64,000 nucleotides of DNA from Acidobacteriota bacterium (GTDB taxonomy: Bacteria > Acidobacteriota > Thermoanaerobaculia > Gp7-AA8 > JAHWKK01), in contig JAHWKK010000016.1 of the NCBI GenBank assembly GCA_019347945.1, forward strand, positions 1-64,000, given 5' to 3'. Below, in pieces: positions 6,989-14,776 of the stretch (position 1 is its first letter; every line of letters begins with the position of its first letter). The translations under genes were made by a program, and so were the position numbers. The notes below the pieces were generated by a model. The model saw only the letters and a list, made by a program, of their open reading frames with translations. It ran no database searches and was not told where the DNA came from.

Positions 6989-7045
6989 TCGGAGCTCGGA
7001 CCGCGATTATAGAAACGGCGATTCACAACGGTCAAATCCGTCACT

Positions 7046-8068
7046 TCAGAACTGACTCAGAATCCGGACGTCGTTCTCGAACAGGACGCGAATGTTCGGC
7101 ATGCCGAATTTCAGCATCGTGACCCGATCGATTCCGAGGCCGAATGCGAACCCGGTGTACCTTTCGGAGTCGATTCCGACGTTCTCGAGCACCTTCGGGT
7201 GGACCATTCCGCACCCGAGAATCTCCATCCACCCCGTCTGGGAACAGGTGCCGCAGCCCTTGCCCGAACAGAAAACGCACGAGATGTCGACCTCCGCCGA
7301 CGGCTCGGTGAAGGGGAAGTAGCTCGGCCGGAATCGGATCCCGGTTCCCGCGGAAAAGATCTTCCGGAGAAAGTGCTGAAGCGTCCCCTTCAGATGCCCG
7401 AAGTGAATTCCTTCGTCGACCAGGAGCCCCTCGATCTGATGAAACATCGGCGAGCGGCGAAGCGTGATCTCGTCGCGACGGTAAACGCGGCCGGACGCGA
7501 CCAGCTTCACCGGCGGCTTCACAGCCTCCATCACGCGGATCTGAACATTCGACGTATGGGTACGAAGGAGCCGGTCCGCCCCGAGATAGAAGGTGTCCTG
7601 TTCGTCTCGTGCCGGATGCTCCGGCTCGAAGTTGAGAGCTTCGAAGTTGTACCAGTCGCTCTCGATCTCGGGTCCTGCCGCGACCGAATAGCCCATCTCC
7701 CGGAAAACACCCTCGATCTCGCGCCGGACGATCGTGATCGGGTGAAGATGGCCGATCCTCGGGCGCCGGCCGGGAAGCGTGACGTCGATCGCTTTCCGTT
7801 TCGACGCCGGCCGGGAGACCGACGCGATCGCTTCGTCCATCCGGGACTGCAACTCGGCCCGGAGCGCGTTGAGCGCAGCGCCCGCTTCCTTCTTCTCCTC
7901 AGGCGGGATCGACTTCAGCTCGCCGAACAGAGCGGGAACGAGCCCCCCCTTGCGGCCGAAGTACCGGATGCGGAGGTCTTCTACCGAGCGGGCATCGTTC
8001 GCCGCCTCGAGGTCTTCGGCGAACCGACGGCGGATCTCTTCGAGCTGTTTCCCGAGCGTCTCGTTCAT
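7046..8068 (-). CDS. pheS: Phenylalanyl-tRNA synthetase alpha subunit
   Basis: The 340-aa protein shows the PheS N-terminal coiled coil (about 1-85), then the class II core with HTSNVQIR, the FHQIEGLLVDEG motif and the C-terminal motif 3 GFAFGLGIDRVTMLKFGMPNIR. It charges tRNA-Phe as an alpha2beta2 enzyme with PheT. The ATG start immediately follows the seven-T tract of a perfect terminator hairpin, and no Shine-Dalgarno is present. pheT does not follow; an HU-like gene does. The start fits the family N-terminus, and no later in-frame start is plausible. Confidence 0.93.
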   Translation of the reverse strand: MNETLGKQLEEIRRRFAEDLEAANDARSVEDLRIRYFGRKGGLVPALFGELKSIPPEEKKEAGAALNALRAELQSRMDEAIASVSRPASKRKAIDVTLPGRRPRIGHLHPITIVRREIEGVFREMGYSVAAGPEIESDWYNFEALNFEPEHPARDEQDTFYLGADRLLRTHTSNVQIRVMEAVKPPVKLVASGRVYRRDEITLRRSPMFHQIEGLLVDEGIHFGHLKGTLQHFLRKIFSAGTGIRFRPSYFPFTEPSAEVDISCVFCSGKGCGTCSQTGWMEILGCGMVHPKVLENVGIDSERYTGFAFGLGIDRVTMLKFGMPNIRVLFENDVRILSQF

Positions 8069-8099
8069 AAAAAAATCGCGGGTCAGGCCGACCCGCGAT
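8069..8099 (-). terminator. Intrinsic terminator/attenuator abutting pheS
   Basis: On the minus strand ATCGCGGGTC, a 5-nt loop GGCCT, and GACCCGCGAT form a perfect 10-bp stem, followed by a seven-T tract that runs directly into the pheS ATG. It lies 24 bp past the rplT stop. It may end the infC-rpmI-rplT message, attenuate pheS, or both. No Phe-rich leader peptide is visible between rplT and the hairpin. Confidence 0.85.
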
Positions 8100-8123
8100 G
8101 GAAGTTTATACGATGAGACTCGA

Positions 8124-8498
8124 TCAGGCGGAAGCGGTCTTTTTGCCGTCGAGCGCCGACTTCGCCTGCTCGACGAGAACGGCGAATGCCGCCTCGTCAT
8201 GCACCGCGATGTCGGCCAGCACCTTACGGTCGAGATCCGAGCCGGCCGCCTTGAGACCGGCGATAAATCGGGAGTACGACAGCCCGTGCAGCCGCGATGC
8301 GGCCCCGATCCTGACGATCCACATCTTTCTGAAATCCCGCTTCCGGTCCTTGCGGCCCGTGTAAGCGGTATCGAGCGCGCGCGCCACCTGCTCTTTTGCG
8401 AGCCGGTGACTGCGCGACTTCAGTCCCCAGTAACCACTCGCAAGTTTCAATATCTTGCGACGACGATTCTTACGCTTCGGTCCTCTTTTGACTCTCAT
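8124..8498 (-). CDS. rplT: 50S ribosomal protein L20
   Basis: The 124-aa protein starts MRVKRGPKRKNRRRKILK and continues with KGYWG-like ASGYWGLKSRSHRLAKEQV, DRKRDFRKMWIVRIGAA and GLSYSRFIAGLK, all signature L20 blocks. L20 binds 23S rRNA early in 50S assembly, and in other bacteria represses its own operon. It is third in infC-rpmI-rplT, 87 bp after rpmI. A strong hairpin terminator follows the stop. Confidence 0.97.
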   Translation of the reverse strand: MRVKRGPKRKNRRRKILKLASGYWGLKSRSHRLAKEQVARALDTAYTGRKDRKRDFRKMWIVRIGAASRLHGLSYSRFIAGLKAAGSDLDRKVLADIAVHDEAAFAVLVEQAKSALDGKKTASA

Positions 8499-8585
8499 TG
8501 ATCCCTCTCCTCGTTATGATTTCTTCGTCCGGCCGGGTCATGAGGATGGGCGTACCCGGTCGCGGTCGTTGCCGCCAGCTTCGTA

Positions 8586-8783
8586 TCAGAGATACGGCAG
8601 CATTCTGTCGACGATCTTGGCGTCCGGTTTTGACAGAAGCACGGACCCGCCGAGCCGGCGCTTCCTTCCGGGCGACTTCTTGGTCAGAATGTGCGCCTTG
8701 AAAGCGGAGCTCCGCTTGATCTTTCCGGTGGCCGTTTTCCTGAAGCGCTTCGCCGCGCCTCGATGTGTTTTCATTTTGGGCAT
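8586..8783 (-). CDS. rpmI: 50S ribosomal protein L35
   Basis: The 65-aa basic protein starts [21 protein letters not shown], and has the [15 protein letters not shown] block and a MLPYL C-terminus, all standard for L35. It sits in the conserved infC-rpmI-rplT order, with 111 bp to infC and 87 bp to rplT, somewhat roomier than usual. It is preceded by GAGAGGTGAACC before the ATG. Confidence 0.97.
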
Positions 8784-8894
8784 GGTTCACCTCTCGAATC
8801 GGCGTCCCTAACCGCCTCGACCCCGGTTTGATTCCCTGATCGCGACCCGGCGGCCGGGAGGCGAAGACGCTTCGACACCCCGGCCGCGAGCTCC

Positions 8895-9452
8895 TTACTT
8901 CGAGGGGACGATCAGCAGGATCAGCCGGTTGCCCTGCATACTCGGAAGCCCTTCCGGCTCTCCCACTTCCTTGATGTCCTCGAGAAGACGGTCGAGTACG
9001 GCCTTGCCGAGCTCGCGATGCGCCATCTCCCGTCCCCGGAAGCGGACGATCGCCTTGACCTTCGCATCGGACTCGAGGAAGCGGATGACGTGCTTCTTTT
9101 TGAACTCGAAGTCGTGATCATCGATTCGAGGGCGGAACTGAACCTCCTTGATCACGATCGTCTTCTGCTTCTTCTTGGCCTCGTTCGCCTTCTTCTTCTC
9201 TTCGAAGAGGTACTTGCCGTGGTCCATGATCTTGCAGACCGGCGGTTTTGCCTGGGGCGCGACCTCGACGAGATCGAGACCCTTTTCATCGGCGAGTGCT
9301 CTCGCTTCATCGGTGTTGACGATTCCTACCTGGTTTCCCTCGTCATCGATGAGGCGGACTTCCGGAACCCTGATGCGTTCGTTGATTCGGGTTCCATCCC
9401 CGGGTTTGCGGGGAATGCGGCCTCGAAAGCCGCGTAACTTGGATGGATGAAT
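8895..9452 (-). CDS. infC: Translation initiation factor IF-3 (probable ATT start)
   Basis: IF-3 binds the 30S subunit and checks initiator tRNA and start codons. The product has RINERIRVPEVRLIDDEGNQVGIV, the linker rich in KKK, and the C-terminal IKEVQFRPRIDDHDFEFKKKHVIRFL, all diagnostic. The only ATG/GTG-type start is a GTG 39 bases upstream with no ribosome-binding site. AAGGAG sits eight bases before an ATT codon at 9450-9452, giving 185 aa. An AUU start is the known E. coli infC device for IF-3 autoregulation, so ATT is preferred here. The alternative is 8895-9491. Confidence 0.85.
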   Translation of the reverse strand: MHPSKLRGFRGRIPRKPGDGTRINERIRVPEVRLIDDEGNQVGIVNTDEARALADEKGLDLVEVAPQAKPPVCKIMDHGKYLFEEKKKANEAKKKQKTIVIKEVQFRPRIDDHDFEFKKKHVIRFLESDAKVKAIVRFRGREMAHRELGKAVLDRLLEDIKEVGEPEGLPSMQGNRLILLIVPSK

Positions 9453-9556
9453 AAGCGTGACTCCTTGACGTTGTTTACGTGTTCCGCGCACTCGAAACGC
9501 GGCTCTCTACTGCACATTCCCTCGTCTGCAAGGGGCGCGCACAATCTACGAAGTGG

Positions 9557-11473
9557 TCATTTCAAAGTCAAGGACCGTGTTCGCATTGCGTCGCGCATCC
9601 TGGCGGCGAGCGCACCAACCTGCTCCGCTCCCAGGTCACCGGCGCTCCGGTCTCTCACACTGACCGTTCCGGCGCTCTCTTCCTTTTCGCCGACGATGAG
9701 CATCAAAGGCACTTTCTCGATCTGCGCATTCCTGATCTTGGCGCCGAGCTTCTCGTTGGCACCGTCGACCTCGACTCGCAAACCGGCTACGACGAGCTCG
9801 TCCCGCACCTTTCCGGCGTACTCCAGAAAGCGGTCCGACACCGGAAGAATCTTCGCCTGTACCGGCGCGAGCCACAGAGGGAACGCCCCCGCGAAGTGCT
9901 CGACCAGAATTGCGAAGAACCGTTCGATCGAACCGAGGATCGCGCGGTGGATCATCACCGGACGGTGCTCCTCGTTGTCAGCGCCGACGTAAGTAAGCTC
10001 GAAGCGCTCCGGGAGCGCATAGTCGAGCTGAATCGTTCCGAGCTGCCAGGGCCGGCCGATCGCATCGTGAATCAGAAACTCGAGCTTCGGCCCGTAAAAA
10101 GCCCCTTCGCCCGGGTTCACGTGGTACTCGAGCCCACGCGCCTCGAGCGCCTCCTCGAGGGCCTTCTCCGCCGCGTCCCACATCTCCGGCGTCCCGATCG
10201 CCTTCTCCGGTCGGTTCGACAGCGCAATCCGAACGTCAGCGAATCCGAAGACCGCGTACATCTCCTCGGTCAGCCCGATCTCCCGTTCGATCTCACTCCG
10301 AATCTGATCCGGTGTCGTGAACAGATGCGCATCGTCCTGCGCAAAGGAACGGACTCGCGTCAGACCGTGGGTCACCCCGGAACGCTCATAGCGGTGAAGC
10401 CTGCAGAAATCGGCGATCCGCAGCGGGAGATCCCTGTACGAATGCATTCTCGCGGCGTAAATCTGCGTGTGACCGGGACAGTTCATCGGCTTCACGCCAT
10501 ACTCCCGCTCGTCGATCTCCGAGAAGAACATCGAGTCGCGAAAGTTCTCGTAATGCCCCGAGGTCCGAAAGAGATCGGCGTCCCAGATCATCGGCGTCAC
10601 GACCTCGTCGTATCCGTCGCGAACGTAATACTCCCGGACGAAATCGACGAGCTCGTTGTAAATGATCGTTCCCTTCGGAAGAAAGATCGGCATCGCCGGA
10701 GCGAACTTCGAGAACGTGAAGAGATCGAGATCTTTGCCGAGCTTCCGATGGTCCCGCGCCTTCGCCTGCTCCAGCCGCTCGAGATACGCCGCCAGCTCCT
10801 TCCGGTCGGCCCACGCCGTGCCGTAGATCCGCTGCAGCATCGCGTTCCGCTCGTCACCTCTCCAGTAGGCTCCCGCGACCGACAGAAGCTTGAAAGCTCC
10901 CAGCTTTCCCGTCGCCGGAACGTGCGGGCCGCGGCACAAGTCCTTCCAGTCACCCTGCGAGTAGACCGAGAGAACCTCGTCCTCCGGAATCTCCCGGATG
11001 ATCTCGGCCTTGTACGCCTCCCCCATCGTCTCGAATTCCTCGACGGCGTCGTTGCGCGCCCACTCGGAGCGCTCGATCGGGAGATCGCGCTCTACGATTT
11101 CCGCCATTCTCTTTTCGATCCGCTCGAGATCCTCGTCGGTGAAGGGCCGATCGGTCGCAAAGTCGTAGAAGAAGCCATCCTCGATCACCGGGCCGATCGT
11201 CACCTGGGTTCCGGGAAAGAGCTCCTGAACCGCATTCGCCATCAGATGTGCCGTCGAATGCCGGATGATCTCGCGGCCCTGATCGGTCTGCGGGGTGACG
11301 ATCGCGATCTTCGACCCTTCGCTGACCGGCGCGTACAGGTCGACGATCTTCCCGTCGACGATTCCCGCAATCGCGTCTTTCGCGAGTCGCTTCCCGATCG
11401 AGGCGGCCACGTCGGCGACCGTCGCCCCGTCGGGCACTTCTTTTTTCGATCCGTCCGGCAACTCCACCTGCAT
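9557..11473 (-). CDS. thrS: Threonyl-tRNA synthetase
   Basis: The 638-aa cytosolic enzyme charges tRNA-Thr. Domains in order: TGS (about 1-60), editing domain with HSTAHLMA and the DLCRGPHVP motif, class II catalytic core (about 240-535, including MNCPGHTQIY and SFAQDDAHLF) and a C-terminal anticodon-binding domain. The ATG is preceded by AGAGGAGAG. It heads the infC-rpmI-rplT-pheS run on this strand, 104 bp before infC. Upstream is a Thr-rich leader peptide and an attenuator-type terminator, which indicates control by charged tRNA-Thr. Confidence 0.97.
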   Translation of the reverse strand: MQVELPDGSKKEVPDGATVADVAASIGKRLAKDAIAGIVDGKIVDLYAPVSEGSKIAIVTPQTDQGREIIRHSTAHLMANAVQELFPGTQVTIGPVIEDGFFYDFATDRPFTDEDLERIEKRMAEIVERDLPIERSEWARNDAVEEFETMGEAYKAEIIREIPEDEVLSVYSQGDWKDLCRGPHVPATGKLGAFKLLSVAGAYWRGDERNAMLQRIYGTAWADRKELAAYLERLEQAKARDHRKLGKDLDLFTFSKFAPAMPIFLPKGTIIYNELVDFVREYYVRDGYDEVVTPMIWDADLFRTSGHYENFRDSMFFSEIDEREYGVKPMNCPGHTQIYAARMHSYRDLPLRIADFCRLHRYERSGVTHGLTRVRSFAQDDAHLFTTPDQIRSEIEREIGLTEEMYAVFGFADVRIALSNRPEKAIGTPEMWDAAEKALEEALEARGLEYHVNPGEGAFYGPKLEFLIHDAIGRPWQLGTIQLDYALPERFELTYVGADNEEHRPVMIHRAILGSIERFFAILVEHFAGAFPLWLAPVQAKILPVSDRFLEYAGKVRDELVVAGLRVEVDGANEKLGAKIRNAQIEKVPLMLIVGEKEESAGTVSVRDRSAGDLGAEQVGALAARMRDAMRTRSLTLK

Positions 11474-11492
11474 GCAAACTCTCCTCTAAACG

Positions 11493-11561
11493 AAAAAGAC
11501 AGGACCCGGGGCCCTGTCTCGTGCGCGCCTGAAAACAGATGACGACTTCACGAGCCGGGGC
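11493..11561 (-). promoter_or_regulatory. thrS transcription attenuator (terminator plus antiterminator)
   Basis: On the minus strand AGACAGG (11519-11513) pairs with CCTGTCT (11503-11497), followed by a T-tract to 11493: an intrinsic terminator 20 nt before the thrS ATG. A competing antiterminator pairs CTCGTG (11554-11549, overlapping the leader stop) with CACGAG (11523-11518), extended by GCCC (11561-11558) with GGGC (11514-11511); it consumes the 5' terminator arm. A short pause-type stem ACGAG (11573-11569)/CTCGT is also possible. No codirectional gene lies upstream, so the terminator cannot be serving another gene. Confidence 0.8.
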
Positions 11562-11598
11562 GTCTCACCTCGTCCGTGGTAGTCGACGTCGTCGTCAT
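11548..11598 (-). CDS. Threonine-rich leader peptide of thrS
   Basis: The 16-residue peptide reads MTTTSTTTDEVRRPGS: six of its first eight codons are Thr (four ACG, one ACT, one ACC). GGGAG precedes the ATG at a short distance. Its stop codon overlaps segment 2 of the antiterminator, so a ribosome finishing the peptide would block antitermination, while one stalled on Thr codons would leave segment 2 free. This is the arrangement of classical amino-acid attenuators such as E. coli thrL, here before thrS. It was identified from the sequence; expression is not shown. Confidence 0.8.
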   Translation of the reverse strand: MTTTSTTTDEVRRPGS

Positions 11599-11704
11599 TG
11601 CTCCCGCCATTCCGGGGCAACAACGGCCCCGTTTCACCCCGGATTCCCGACAAGGCACGCTTTTTGTTCCCGAAATTACTCGGTAACGAAAGGAGTCACC
11701 CATC

Positions 11705-12631
11705 ATGAGAAACCGCACGTCAATCCTTCTGGCAGCAACTCTTCCGCTTCTTTTCCTCGGCTGTGGTTCGACCGACCTCGGAGGAATCCTCGGAGGGGGC
11801 ACCGACACCCGGACCTCGTCGTCCGCACCGAGCATGGTTCGCGGCGTAGTCTCGAGCGTCGACCCGACCAATCGCGTGATCTATCTCGACTCGGCGACCG
11901 TGAGCCTCCAGAACAGCGGCTACGATTCCGCCAAGCTCTACTACGAGACGAATACGCCGGTCATTTTCAACAACGAGCGCTATACCCCCGAGAACCTCGA
12001 GCGGGGCGACCGGATCGAGGCCTCCGTTCAGAGCTCCTCGAATCGACTGATCGCCACCGAGATCCACGTGACCTACGACTCGACCCCGGATGATGCCTGG
12101 GGCGGTTCGACGAACGCATCCCTCATGACGGGAACCGTTCGTGACATCGATACCCGCTCACGCTGGATCGACGTCCAGAGCAACGACTGGAACCGCACCG
12201 TCACGCGCGTCTACTACGACAACTCGACGGTCGCGATGCAGGACGGACGCTCCTACAATCCCGATACAATCCGCGTCGGCGATGAGATCCGGCTCGAGGT
12301 CTCGCAGACCTCGAATCGACTCTATGCATCGCGCATCGAGATCGGCGCTACCGCCTCGGGCGGTGACCGGTGGGGTTCGATCAATGAGACCGTTCGCGCT
12401 GAAGTCGTCTCGGTCAACGAATGGAACAACACCCTCGAAGTGCGGCGAACGACCGGAGCGCGCGAGCGGCTGACGCTGAGCTACGACTCCAGAACGGGCG
12501 TCGAGTATCAGGGCCGGACCTATCCGGTCGTGAATCTCGAGCGAGGGGACGTCGTCGACATTGCCGTGACCGGAACCTCGCCGACAAATCTGACGGCGAG
12601 CCGCATCGTCGTCGTTCGGAGCGTCCGGTAG
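11705..12631 (+). CDS. Lipoprotein with three DUF5666-like repeats
   Basis: The 308-aa product has a signal peptide with lipobox LFLGC (Cys20). Three repeats of about 75-90 residues follow, starting near 44 (VRGVVSSVDPTNRVIYLDS), 140 (MTGTVRDIDTRSRWIDVQS) and 232 (VRAEVVSVNEWNNTLEVRR). Each ends in a similar strand (SNRLIATEIHV, SNRLYASRIEI, PTNLTASRIVV). The layout resembles OB-like DUF5666 proteins. The ATG has AAGGAG ten bases upstream. It diverges from the thrS leader. Role unknown; membrane anchoring is inferred. Confidence 0.8.
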   Translation: MRNRTSILLAATLPLLFLGCGSTDLGGILGGGTDTRTSSSAPSMVRGVVSSVDPTNRVIYLDSATVSLQNSGYDSAKLYYETNTPVIFNNERYTPENLERGDRIEASVQSSSNRLIATEIHVTYDSTPDDAWGGSTNASLMTGTVRDIDTRSRWIDVQSNDWNRTVTRVYYDNSTVAMQDGRSYNPDTIRVGDEIRLEVSQTSNRLYASRIEIGATASGGDRWGSINETVRAEVVSVNEWNNTLEVRRTTGARERLTLSYDSRTGVEYQGRTYPVVNLERGDVVDIAVTGTSPTNLTASRIVVVRSVR

Positions 12632-13345
12632 GAAAGACAGGGATCAGGGATCAGGGAGCAGGGACCAGGGAGCAGGGATCAGGGAGCAGGGACCAGGGAG
12701 CAGAAGAAACCTCGTTCCAGAGCTTCGGTCGCAAGATTTCACCCCGCCCAGATCCTTCGCCGTGCTTCGGCGGCTCAGGATGGCGAGTGTTTCGATGTGG
12801 CGAGAGCAAAACGACCCGGACCTCGTCGTTCCGAGTCTGAAGGTGGAGTTTGCGAAACCGAAACCACGTCATCCTGAGTAAAACCCGTTCGTGGCGCCTG
12901 GTGAAGCGGAAATGAGACCCGTGAGTGCATAAACAACCGCACTCGCGTACTCAAACCGACGTCATCCTGAGCAAGTGACCGGCGCGTTGCGCCGGTGAAG
13001 CGGAAATGACACCTGTAAGTGCAGAACAACCGCGCTCACATACTCAAACAGACGTCATCCTGAGCGGGCGGTCGGGCGGGCAGGCGAAGGACCTCGCAGG
13101 TTGGGACATCAGACCAAGCGAAGCGCTGTAAAAGGTCGAAGTCCAGCAATTTCATAGTGGTTTCATTAGGAGCGGGCGGTCGGGCGGGCAGGCGAAGAGC
13201 CTGCCCTGAGGGGTGATGGGTGGGGGAAACCGAAGGGACCTCGCAGGTTGGGACATCAGACCAAGCGAAGCGCTGCAAAAGATAAGGGCCGGGCCGACCA
13301 CGTGGGGTTGGTCGAGCCTTTTGCCTCCGAGACCCTCGCGCGCCC
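12632..13345. repeat. Repeat-filled gap: CAGGGA tandem array and dispersed elements
   Basis: No gene is seen in 714 bp. At 12641-12705 there is a tandem array of GGGATCA/GGGAGCA/GGGACCA heptamers starting 10 bp after the lipoprotein stop. From about 12850 to 13300 related units recur: CCTGAGCAAGTGACCGGCG, CGTCATCCTGAGCGGGCGG, and twice CCTCGCAGGTTGGGACATCA followed by GACCAAGCGAAGCGCTG. The longer unit matches 6110-6235 and, inverted, 27540-27740. Confidence 0.8.
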
Positions 13346-14776
13346 TTACTCGACGCTGACCGACTTCCATGCATCCGCGATGGCCTGAGCGGCGACGAGC
13401 GCCTCGTCCTGCCCCGTCGCCCAGTTGCTGACCGACACCCGGATGACCGCCCGCCCCTTCCAGCGGCTTCCGCTGAGCCAGATCCGCCCGTCCTGCTGAA
13501 TGCGCCGCACCACACGATCGACGAGGCCGTCGTGTAGTTTCGAATCCTCGACGTCGAAATCGACGAGCACCTGATTCAGCACGACCTCGTTGACGATTCG
13601 AATGCCATCCACTTTTCGCAGTTCCGAGGCGATCCGGCTCGCTGCCGAACAGCCGCGCTCGATCAGTTCTCGAAGTCCCGAGCGACCAAGCCAGCGCAGC
13701 GCGGCATAGACCGGCAATCCTCTTCCGCGCCTGGAGAACTCCGGTGTCCAGTCGAGAGGATCGCGGGGCGCATCCGAATCCGGACCCGCCTGGATGAGGT
13801 AGTCGGCACGCACGGAGGTCGCTCCGAGGTGTGCGGCGCGATCTTTGACGATGGCGATCCCGCAGTCGTAGGGGACGTTGAGCCATTTGTGGGCATCGGT
13901 CGCCCACGAATCCGCCTCCTCGACGCCTTCGACGAGCGGCGAGGTCTCGGGTGAGACGCGAGCCCAGAGACCGAACGCTCCGTCGACGTGCACCCACGCA
14001 TCCGATTCATGGGCGATCGCGATCACCTCCCCGAGAGGATCGAACGAGCCGGTGTTGACATTACCCGCCTGCGCGCAGACGATCGCCGGCCCTTCGCCCT
14101 CTCGCAGCGCATTCCGAAGCGCTTCCGGCCGCATCCGCCCTTCGAAATCCGTAGCGATCCGTACCGGACTCGCCCCGAGTCCGATCAGCCTCAGCGCGCT
14201 GAAAATCGTCGCATGCGCCTCGTCCGGAACGAGCACGCGAACTCTCGGGGCGCCCTGAAGCCCGTCTCTTTCCACATCCCATCCGGCATCGGCGAGGACG
14301 CGGTGTCTCGCCGCCGCGAGGCAGGTCGTGTTCGCCATCTGCCCGCCGGTCACGAACGCAACGCCACTCGTTTCCGGCAATCGGAGGACTTCGAGCAGCC
14401 AGCGCGCGGCGACCTCTTCGCAGACCGAAGGAGCCGGCGCCGCGGCATAGAGCCCGGCGTTCTGATCCCACACGGAGGTGAGCCAGTCGGCGGCCAGCGC
14501 TACGGGCATCGAGCCACCGATGACGAAGCCGAAGAAGCGCGGCGAGACCGATCCGAGCAGACCGTCTCTCGCCCCTTCGATCAGTTCCCGGATGACCTTT
14601 TCATCATCCAGCCCCTCCTCGGTCAGTTCGAGCCCGAGCCGCTCACGCAACTGCTCGAGCGACGCCCGATGCGTCACATCCCTCTCGGGGATGGCGGAGA
14701 GGAAGCGCTGCGACTCGGCGCTCGCGAGCTGCAGGACACGCTCGAAGCGTTTTTCGTCCCAGTCGAACCGGCTCAT
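13346..14776 (-). CDS. Pyridoxal-5'-phosphate-dependent decarboxylase family protein (group II)
   Basis: The 476-aa protein belongs to the group II PLP decarboxylase family (aromatic L-amino acid, glutamate and tyrosine decarboxylases). The PLP Schiff-base lysine is Lys297 in TDAHKWLNVPYDCG; HVDGAF at 263-268 supplies the pyridine-binding Asp, and TGGQMANTTCL at 143-153 matches the phosphate-binding region. Substrate cannot be read from the motifs; family members of this length often act on aromatic amino acids. It follows the DUF1684 lipoprotein gene on the same strand by 18 bp. Confidence 0.9.
   Translation of the reverse strand: MSRFDWDEKRFERVLQLASAESQRFLSAIPERDVTHRASLEQLRERLGLELTEEGLDDEKVIRELIEGARDGLLGSVSPRFFGFVIGGSMPVALAADWLTSVWDQNAGLYAAAPAPSVCEEVAARWLLEVLRLPETSGVAFVTGGQMANTTCLAAARHRVLADAGWDVERDGLQGAPRVRVLVPDEAHATIFSALRLIGLGASPVRIATDFEGRMRPEALRNALREGEGPAIVCAQAGNVNTGSFDPLGEVIAIAHESDAWVHVDGAFGLWARVSPETSPLVEGVEEADSWATDAHKWLNVPYDCGIAIVKDRAAHLGATSVRADYLIQAGPDSDAPRDPLDWTPEFSRRGRGLPVYAALRWLGRSGLRELIERGCSAASRIASELRKVDGIRIVNEVVLNQVLVDFDVEDSKLHDGLVDRVVRRIQQDGRIWLSGSRWKGRAVIRVSVSNWATGQDEALVAAQAIADAWKSVSVE

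Follow-up and report, generated by a model that had tools for sequence, protein, structure and literature searches.

The thrS gene of a Thermoanaerobaculia-like bacterium (Acidobacteriota), and of the order to which it belongs, is very probably controlled by a ribosome-mediated transcription attenuator of the trp/thr/pheST type, as judged from sequence comparison. A leader ORF, a terminator, a mutually exclusive antiterminator, a fitting ribosome geometry, order-wide conservation and the confinement of Thr codons to one frame can all be seen in the sequence, and from these we infer leader translation, ribosome stalling and a response to threonine. The first-pass annotation of this DNA had read the region before thrS as an attenuator, and comparison bears this reading out, since in 18 of 18 genomes all the parts are laid out as ribosome-mediated attenuation requires.

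The window analysed here, a stretch of 64,000 nucleotides, comes from a 3.7-Mb draft genome in 49 contigs. The minus strand of the window carries, in this order, thrS, infC, rpmI, rplT and pheS, and the following features were recognized.

11548..11598, minus strand: leader peptide ORF MTTTSTTTDEVRRPGS, 16 codons plus TGA; Thr-rich leaders are found in 17 of 18 order genomes
11574..11585, minus strand: segment 1, Thr codons 6-8 (CGACUACCACGG), pairing with 11553-11543; possible 1:2 anti-antiterminator or pause helix
11549..11561, minus strand: segment 2, GCCCCGGCUCGUG, 5' arm of the antiterminator, overlapping the leader stop codon; GCCCUGUC at the homologous position in relatives
11511..11523, minus strand: segment 3, CACGAGACAGGGC, pairing with segment 2 (antiterminator) or segment 4 (terminator), from pairing and alignment
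11496..11520, minus strand: intrinsic terminator hairpin GAGACAGGGCCCCGGGUCCUGUCUU, 11 pairs and a loop of 3; hairpin conserved in relatives
11491..11497, minus strand: T-tract region of the terminator, from sequence
11479..11487, minus strand: likely thrS Shine-Dalgarno sequence (AGAGGAG region), immediately 3' of the terminator and followed by the thrS ATG, from sequence
9557..11473, minus strand: thrS, threonyl-tRNA synthetase, with TGS, SAD, class II core and anticodon-binding domains (Pfam)
8895..9491, minus strand: infC (IF-3), the gene after thrS (Pfam); start codon uncertain
8586..8783, minus strand: rpmI (ribosomal protein L35, 65 aa), recognized by sequence
8124..8498, minus strand: rplT (ribosomal protein L20; Pfam)
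7046..8068, minus strand: pheS (Pfam); start inferred, likely the ATG at 8068

In the proposed mechanism, RNA polymerase would transcribe the leader with a ribosome following on the Thr-codon ORF. When Thr-tRNA is ample, the ribosome would reach the stop codon and cover segment 2, the 3:4 terminator would form, and transcription would end before thrS. When Thr-tRNA is scarce, the ribosome would stall on the Thr codons, 5' of segment 2, which could then pair with segment 3, so that no terminator would form and thrS would be transcribed.

The 16-codon leader ORF was found with exactly the peptide given in the first-pass annotation, running from 11598 to 11548 on the minus strand and ending in TGA. 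It carries six Thr codons among its first eight codons, and six among all 16. The start of the window leader is not certain because an in-frame ATG lies at 11610, from which the leader would read MAGAMTTTSTTTDEVRRPGS. A GGGAG sequence stands just 2 nt 5' of the start of the 16-codon form, closer than is usual for a good Shine-Dalgarno sequence. Among 978 start-stop pairs of 8-30 codons in the 64-kb window, 21 carry at least five Thr codons, thus Thr richness by itself is not decisive. Chance is ruled out by conservation, the device preceding thrS in every one of the 18 order genomes whose 5' region is assembled.

The other claimed elements were recovered as well. The terminator with its T-tract before thrS forms a stem of 11 pairs with a loop of 3 (11520-11496, minus strand), and 2 terminator-like sites occur in the 600-base region against 0.5 in shuffled sequences. 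The antiterminator had been described as two pieces, CTCGTG/CACGAG and an extension GCCC/GGGC; both lie in one register and hence constitute a single helix of 13 positions with 2 mismatches, in which 11561-11549 pairs with 11523-11511 and 10 of the first 12 positions pair. The overlap of the leader TGA with segment 2, noted earlier, was confirmed. Antiterminator and terminator are mutually exclusive, the 5' arm of the latter lying within segment 3. The 1:2 helix is seen in single-sequence minimum-energy folds, both of the leader lacking segments 3-4 and of the whole leader. The whole window leader folds better than shuffled sequences (z -2.55); the window antiterminator alone does not (z -0.6), and has the poorest z-score of the set.

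Conservation was assessed in 19 genomes of the order, nearly all of the compared sequences being from draft genomes: that of the window, the sole member of its family, together with 18 from a second family. G010 was kept outside the counts since its thrS lies at a contig end and the 5' region is missing, which leaves 18 genomes including that of the window. In all 18, a leader ORF, an antiterminator and a terminator precede thrS. The conserved Thr run and paired stems that the annotation had proposed to look for in sister genomes are thus present throughout, with 5-9 Thr codons in 17 of the 18 leaders, for example MKHTTTTQTRTTGTTLMPCQ (G001), MRRTTSTRQTRTTDLTIPPCR (G016) and MHRFTTTQATRTTTRTSSRPRPA (G003). 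The degenerate leader of G007 (L012), MRPTCSSPPCR, has one Thr codon, and its -10 box, antiterminator and terminator are all kept; with a single Thr codon left, Thr sensing may have been lost in this genome.

Enrichment in Thr codons is limited to the leader frame. Among 342 codons of the 18 leaders, 125 Thr codons lie in the leader frame (about 37% across the order) versus 7 and 10 in the other two frames. Each of the four Thr codons occurs (ACG 92, ACC 15, ACT 14, ACA 4). The share of ACG among Thr codons is 74% in the leaders versus 27% in the thrS genes of relatives, and this bias looks as if one tRNA-Thr isoacceptor were sensed. The geometry is also constant. The leader stop always falls in or just 3' of segment 2 across the order; among 17 tabulated genomes the stop codon begins 10-13 nt after segment 2 starts. 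For an assumed 3' edge of the ribosome, nearly all leader Thr codons lie far enough 5' for a stalled ribosome to leave segment 2 clear.

Pairing of both helices was evaluated across the alignment. In the antiterminator core (GCCCUGUC/GACAGGGC), 92.6% of cells are paired versus 23-54% when either partner is slid by 1-3 columns; because segment 2 of the window row is shifted out of register in the core alignment, the pairing of the window was treated by hand. For the terminator, 94.1% of cells are paired versus 25-64% when slid by 1-3 columns (17 genomes). Compensatory changes in the stems, which the first-pass annotation had named as a check, are found outside the 8-bp core but not within it, where no covariation was found and sequences hardly vary. 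Such invariance is expected because segment 3 must pair with both segments 2 and 4. Outside the core, position 9 changes as pairs (G-C, C-G, T-A, A-T), and over 12 positions there are 155 Watson-Crick pairs versus 146.1 with partners permuted (P = 0.003, with a permutation that ignores relatedness). In G005, segments 2, 3 and 4 have changed together (CUGC/GCAG/CUGC).

The device is specific to the thrS leader. A covariance model built from 17 leaders, R1, for which E-values are rough, gave one strong match in each order genome possessing the region, always the thrS leader, at 50.7-101.5 bits, the next best match scoring 30.4. The G015 leader MNRTTTRSTLTTTGSPPCR, which is not in the model and lies on a contig that runs on into the thrS start, was recovered at 72.9 bits. 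Across 297 genomes of the phylum, searched with stricter filters, nothing outside the order scored above about 30 bits. Four weak secondary matches (G018 C311, G016 C253, G000 C8 and G029 C161) were inspected and look like chance matches in ACGACG-rich or coding sequence, two of them being followed by ordinary terminators. The Thr_leader model (RF00506), applied to the window region and to five relatives, gave no match up to E = 1, nor did the T-box covariance model up to E = 1 in window positions 7000-14000. An Rfam scan of the window and eight loci returned just tRNAs and weak chance matches, with no T-box or Thr_leader.

The surroundings of thrS outside the order bear on the origin of the device, and on one rival explanation of it. 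Nearly all of the thrS loci inspected in other families of this class (L024-L034, L115-L134) have tRNA-Val genes in tandem, usually two (GAC, CAC), directly 5' of thrS, often with a terminator-like hairpin between them and thrS, and no Thr leader of this kind was found in the class outgroup families examined. Within the order, the two tRNA-Val genes and the leader occur together in G003 and G017; the genome of the window and the rest of the order have the leader alone. Accordingly, the earlier statement that no codirectional gene lies upstream holds in the window, where the neighbor at 11705 is divergent, but not in G003 and G017, where two codirectional tRNA-Val genes lie upstream. One could therefore see here a plain intrinsic terminator, inherited from the tRNA-Val-terminator-thrS arrangement and lowering thrS expression constitutively, with the Thr ORF incidental; the terminator-like hairpins of several outgroups, which have no Thr leader, and the tRNA genes still present in G003 and G017 speak for it. 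Yet a plain terminator needs neither the in-frame Thr codons, found with synonymous variation in 17 of 18 leaders, nor the antiterminator overlapping the leader stop region, kept in all, and we regard it as very unlikely.

Two further explanations concern what the leader would sense. That E. coli thrS is autoregulated by its own product suggests that the leader RNA might be a ThrRS binding site, a tRNA-like operator as in the translational autorepression of E. coli thrS, with the ORF as a by-product. What is conserved, however, are the in-frame Thr codons, the fixed stop and the antiterminator/terminator pair rather than a fold resembling an anticodon arm at the thrS start, and the terminator of several relatives is some 85-115 nt 5' of thrS, making such an operator an extremely improbable account of the region. 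The ORF might instead report leader translation in general, responding for example to the rate of initiation or to inhibitors that target the ribosome, and not to Thr-tRNA charging, since any stall within it would act through the geometry of stop codon and segment 2, which G007 retains with its single Thr codon. Against this stands the abundance of in-frame Thr codons (37%) across the order, before the very gene for the Thr-charging enzyme, and general translation sensing has a scarcely appreciable probability.

The device appears to have arisen within the order, at the junction where other orders of the class have tRNA-Val and then thrS. The simplest reading would be that early in the history of the order a tRNA-Val-(terminator)-thrS junction acquired a leader and an antiterminator, and that the tRNA genes were lost there later.

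Initiation at the leader was considered from the promoter side. A TATACT or TACAAT box lies 7-15 nt 5' of the leader AUG in 12 of the 14 relatives scanned, and 22 and 29 nt 5' of it in the other two, often with TG one base before the box; in G015, TATACT is 8 nt 5' of the AUG. Taking +1 as about 7 nt past the box, the predicted 5' UTR of the leader is about 0-8 nt in 12 of the 14 relatives and roughly 15 and 22 nt in the remaining ones. Because the AUG is so close to the -10 box, the leader is probably translated from a leaderless or near-leaderless transcript in most relatives, which is possibly an unusual form. The TATACT-like box is absent from the genome of the window, G003 and G017; a sigma-70 scan 5' of the window leader found no promoter, and a looser scan gave weak candidates alone.

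A tRNA-Val gene before thrS is also seen in many Proteobacteria loci. In several Burkholderiales loci (L113, L106, L140-L144, L149, L156, L164, L166), short Thr-rich ORFs stand before thrS, mostly just 3' of tRNA-Val, and are followed by an intrinsic terminator; MFKRTTTTRISR, MQLNRTTTTS and MTPRTTTTICERR are examples. In the Burkholderiales sample, 11 of about 30 loci parsed have an ORF with at least three Thr codons in the tRNA-Val/thrS interval and a terminator after it. The Thr codons of these ORFs number 42, 6 and 8 by frame, a count that is biased because the ORFs were picked for Thr content, and antiterminator pairing is better than in shuffled sequences in just a few leaders (P 0.03-0.67). 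These ORFs probably represent a separate thrS attenuator, so that thrS is probably under Thr attenuation outside this acidobacterial order too. We may tentatively propose, at somewhat less than an even chance, that the Thr-tRNA attenuator arose once in the order at a tRNA-Val-terminator-thrS junction and is read from a leaderless or near-leaderless transcript in most of the order, the Burkholderiales leaders being of independent origin at the same junction. If the leaderless or near-leaderless reading is true, the sensing ribosome would load at the very 5' end while the RNA emerges.

The attenuator might perhaps extend its control to infC-rpmI-rplT-pheS, as the first-pass annotation suggested. 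A promoter-like TTGACT-17-TAGATT at 9571-9543 (minus strand), on the thrS/infC boundary, suggests that infC could be transcribed independently of thrS. A strong terminator-like hairpin (8099-8075, minus strand) lies in the rplT/pheS gap, its T-run abutting the likely pheS ATG (8068), and the space there is too small for a Phe leader ORF. On the other side of the leader, short repeats of the CAGGGAGCAGGGATCAGGGA type occur at 12637-12705 (plus strand), 3' of the divergent gene at 11705-12631.

The mechanism is classical; thrS and this bacterial group have hardly been studied for ribosome-mediated attenuation. The leader of the enterobacterial thr operon controls biosynthesis (thrABC) and uses Ile codons besides Thr codons. 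E. coli thrS is subject to translational autorepression by ThrRS, and the T-box before thrS in Firmicutes binds uncharged tRNA-Thr directly and controls termination. The leader of E. coli pheST has a normal 5' UTR. The present device resembles that pheST leader (pheM) in its leader rich in cognate codons, its intrinsic terminator, its competing antiterminator and the control of a synthetase gene, but it would respond to Thr rather than Phe and occurs in a different phylum. With the enterobacterial Thr_leader (RF00506) it shares Thr codons that, read by a leader ribosome, would switch between terminator and antiterminator; it differs in preceding thrS instead of biosynthesis genes and in lacking an Rfam match. 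As with the Firmicutes T-box, charging of tRNA-Thr would be sensed and termination before thrS controlled, with the leader ribosome as the proposed sensor here, unlike the direct tRNA binding there.

Synthetase genes under ribosome-mediated attenuation include pheST in gamma-proteobacteria and trpS and leuS in Streptomyces (PMC1262725). A 2010 survey of premature terminators, in which E. coli ThrRS autoregulation is mentioned, noted an associated function for hardly any of those predicted in Acidobacteria (PMC2965389). In Streptomyces lividans, a Thr-dependent attenuator has been proposed for thrL-thrS, where a leader with two Thr codons (MKRVRPFLETTPGFVPAR) has a leaderless start and no clear terminator (PMC8079986). 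Both systems place a leader peptide before thrS, and a leaderless or near-leaderless start, as in S. lividans, is also predicted in most of the acidobacterial relatives; however, the latter have 5-9 Thr codons and a conserved terminator/antiterminator, and no similarity between the two is visible. Cys-rich upstream ORFs in mycobacteria, a group in which leaderless starts are common, have likewise been proposed to act by attenuation, and are likewise short and enriched in codons for the amino acid concerned; those ORFs, in the portion of the account considered, concern Cys and other genes and come without a described terminator/antiterminator pair (PMC4633059).

Acidobacteriota thus gain an attenuator that is well defined and found throughout one order, with Thr-tRNA charging as its specific likely signal and thrS as its likely target, and its predicted leaderless form makes attenuation with 5'-end initiation a testable question. 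The loci form a natural series for the study of attenuator origins, from tRNA-Val-thrS (outgroups) through tRNA-Val-leader-thrS (G003 and G017) to leader-thrS (the rest). Ribosome-mediated attenuation at a Thr leader would be added to the known modes of thrS control, next to ThrRS autorepression in E. coli and T-boxes in Firmicutes.
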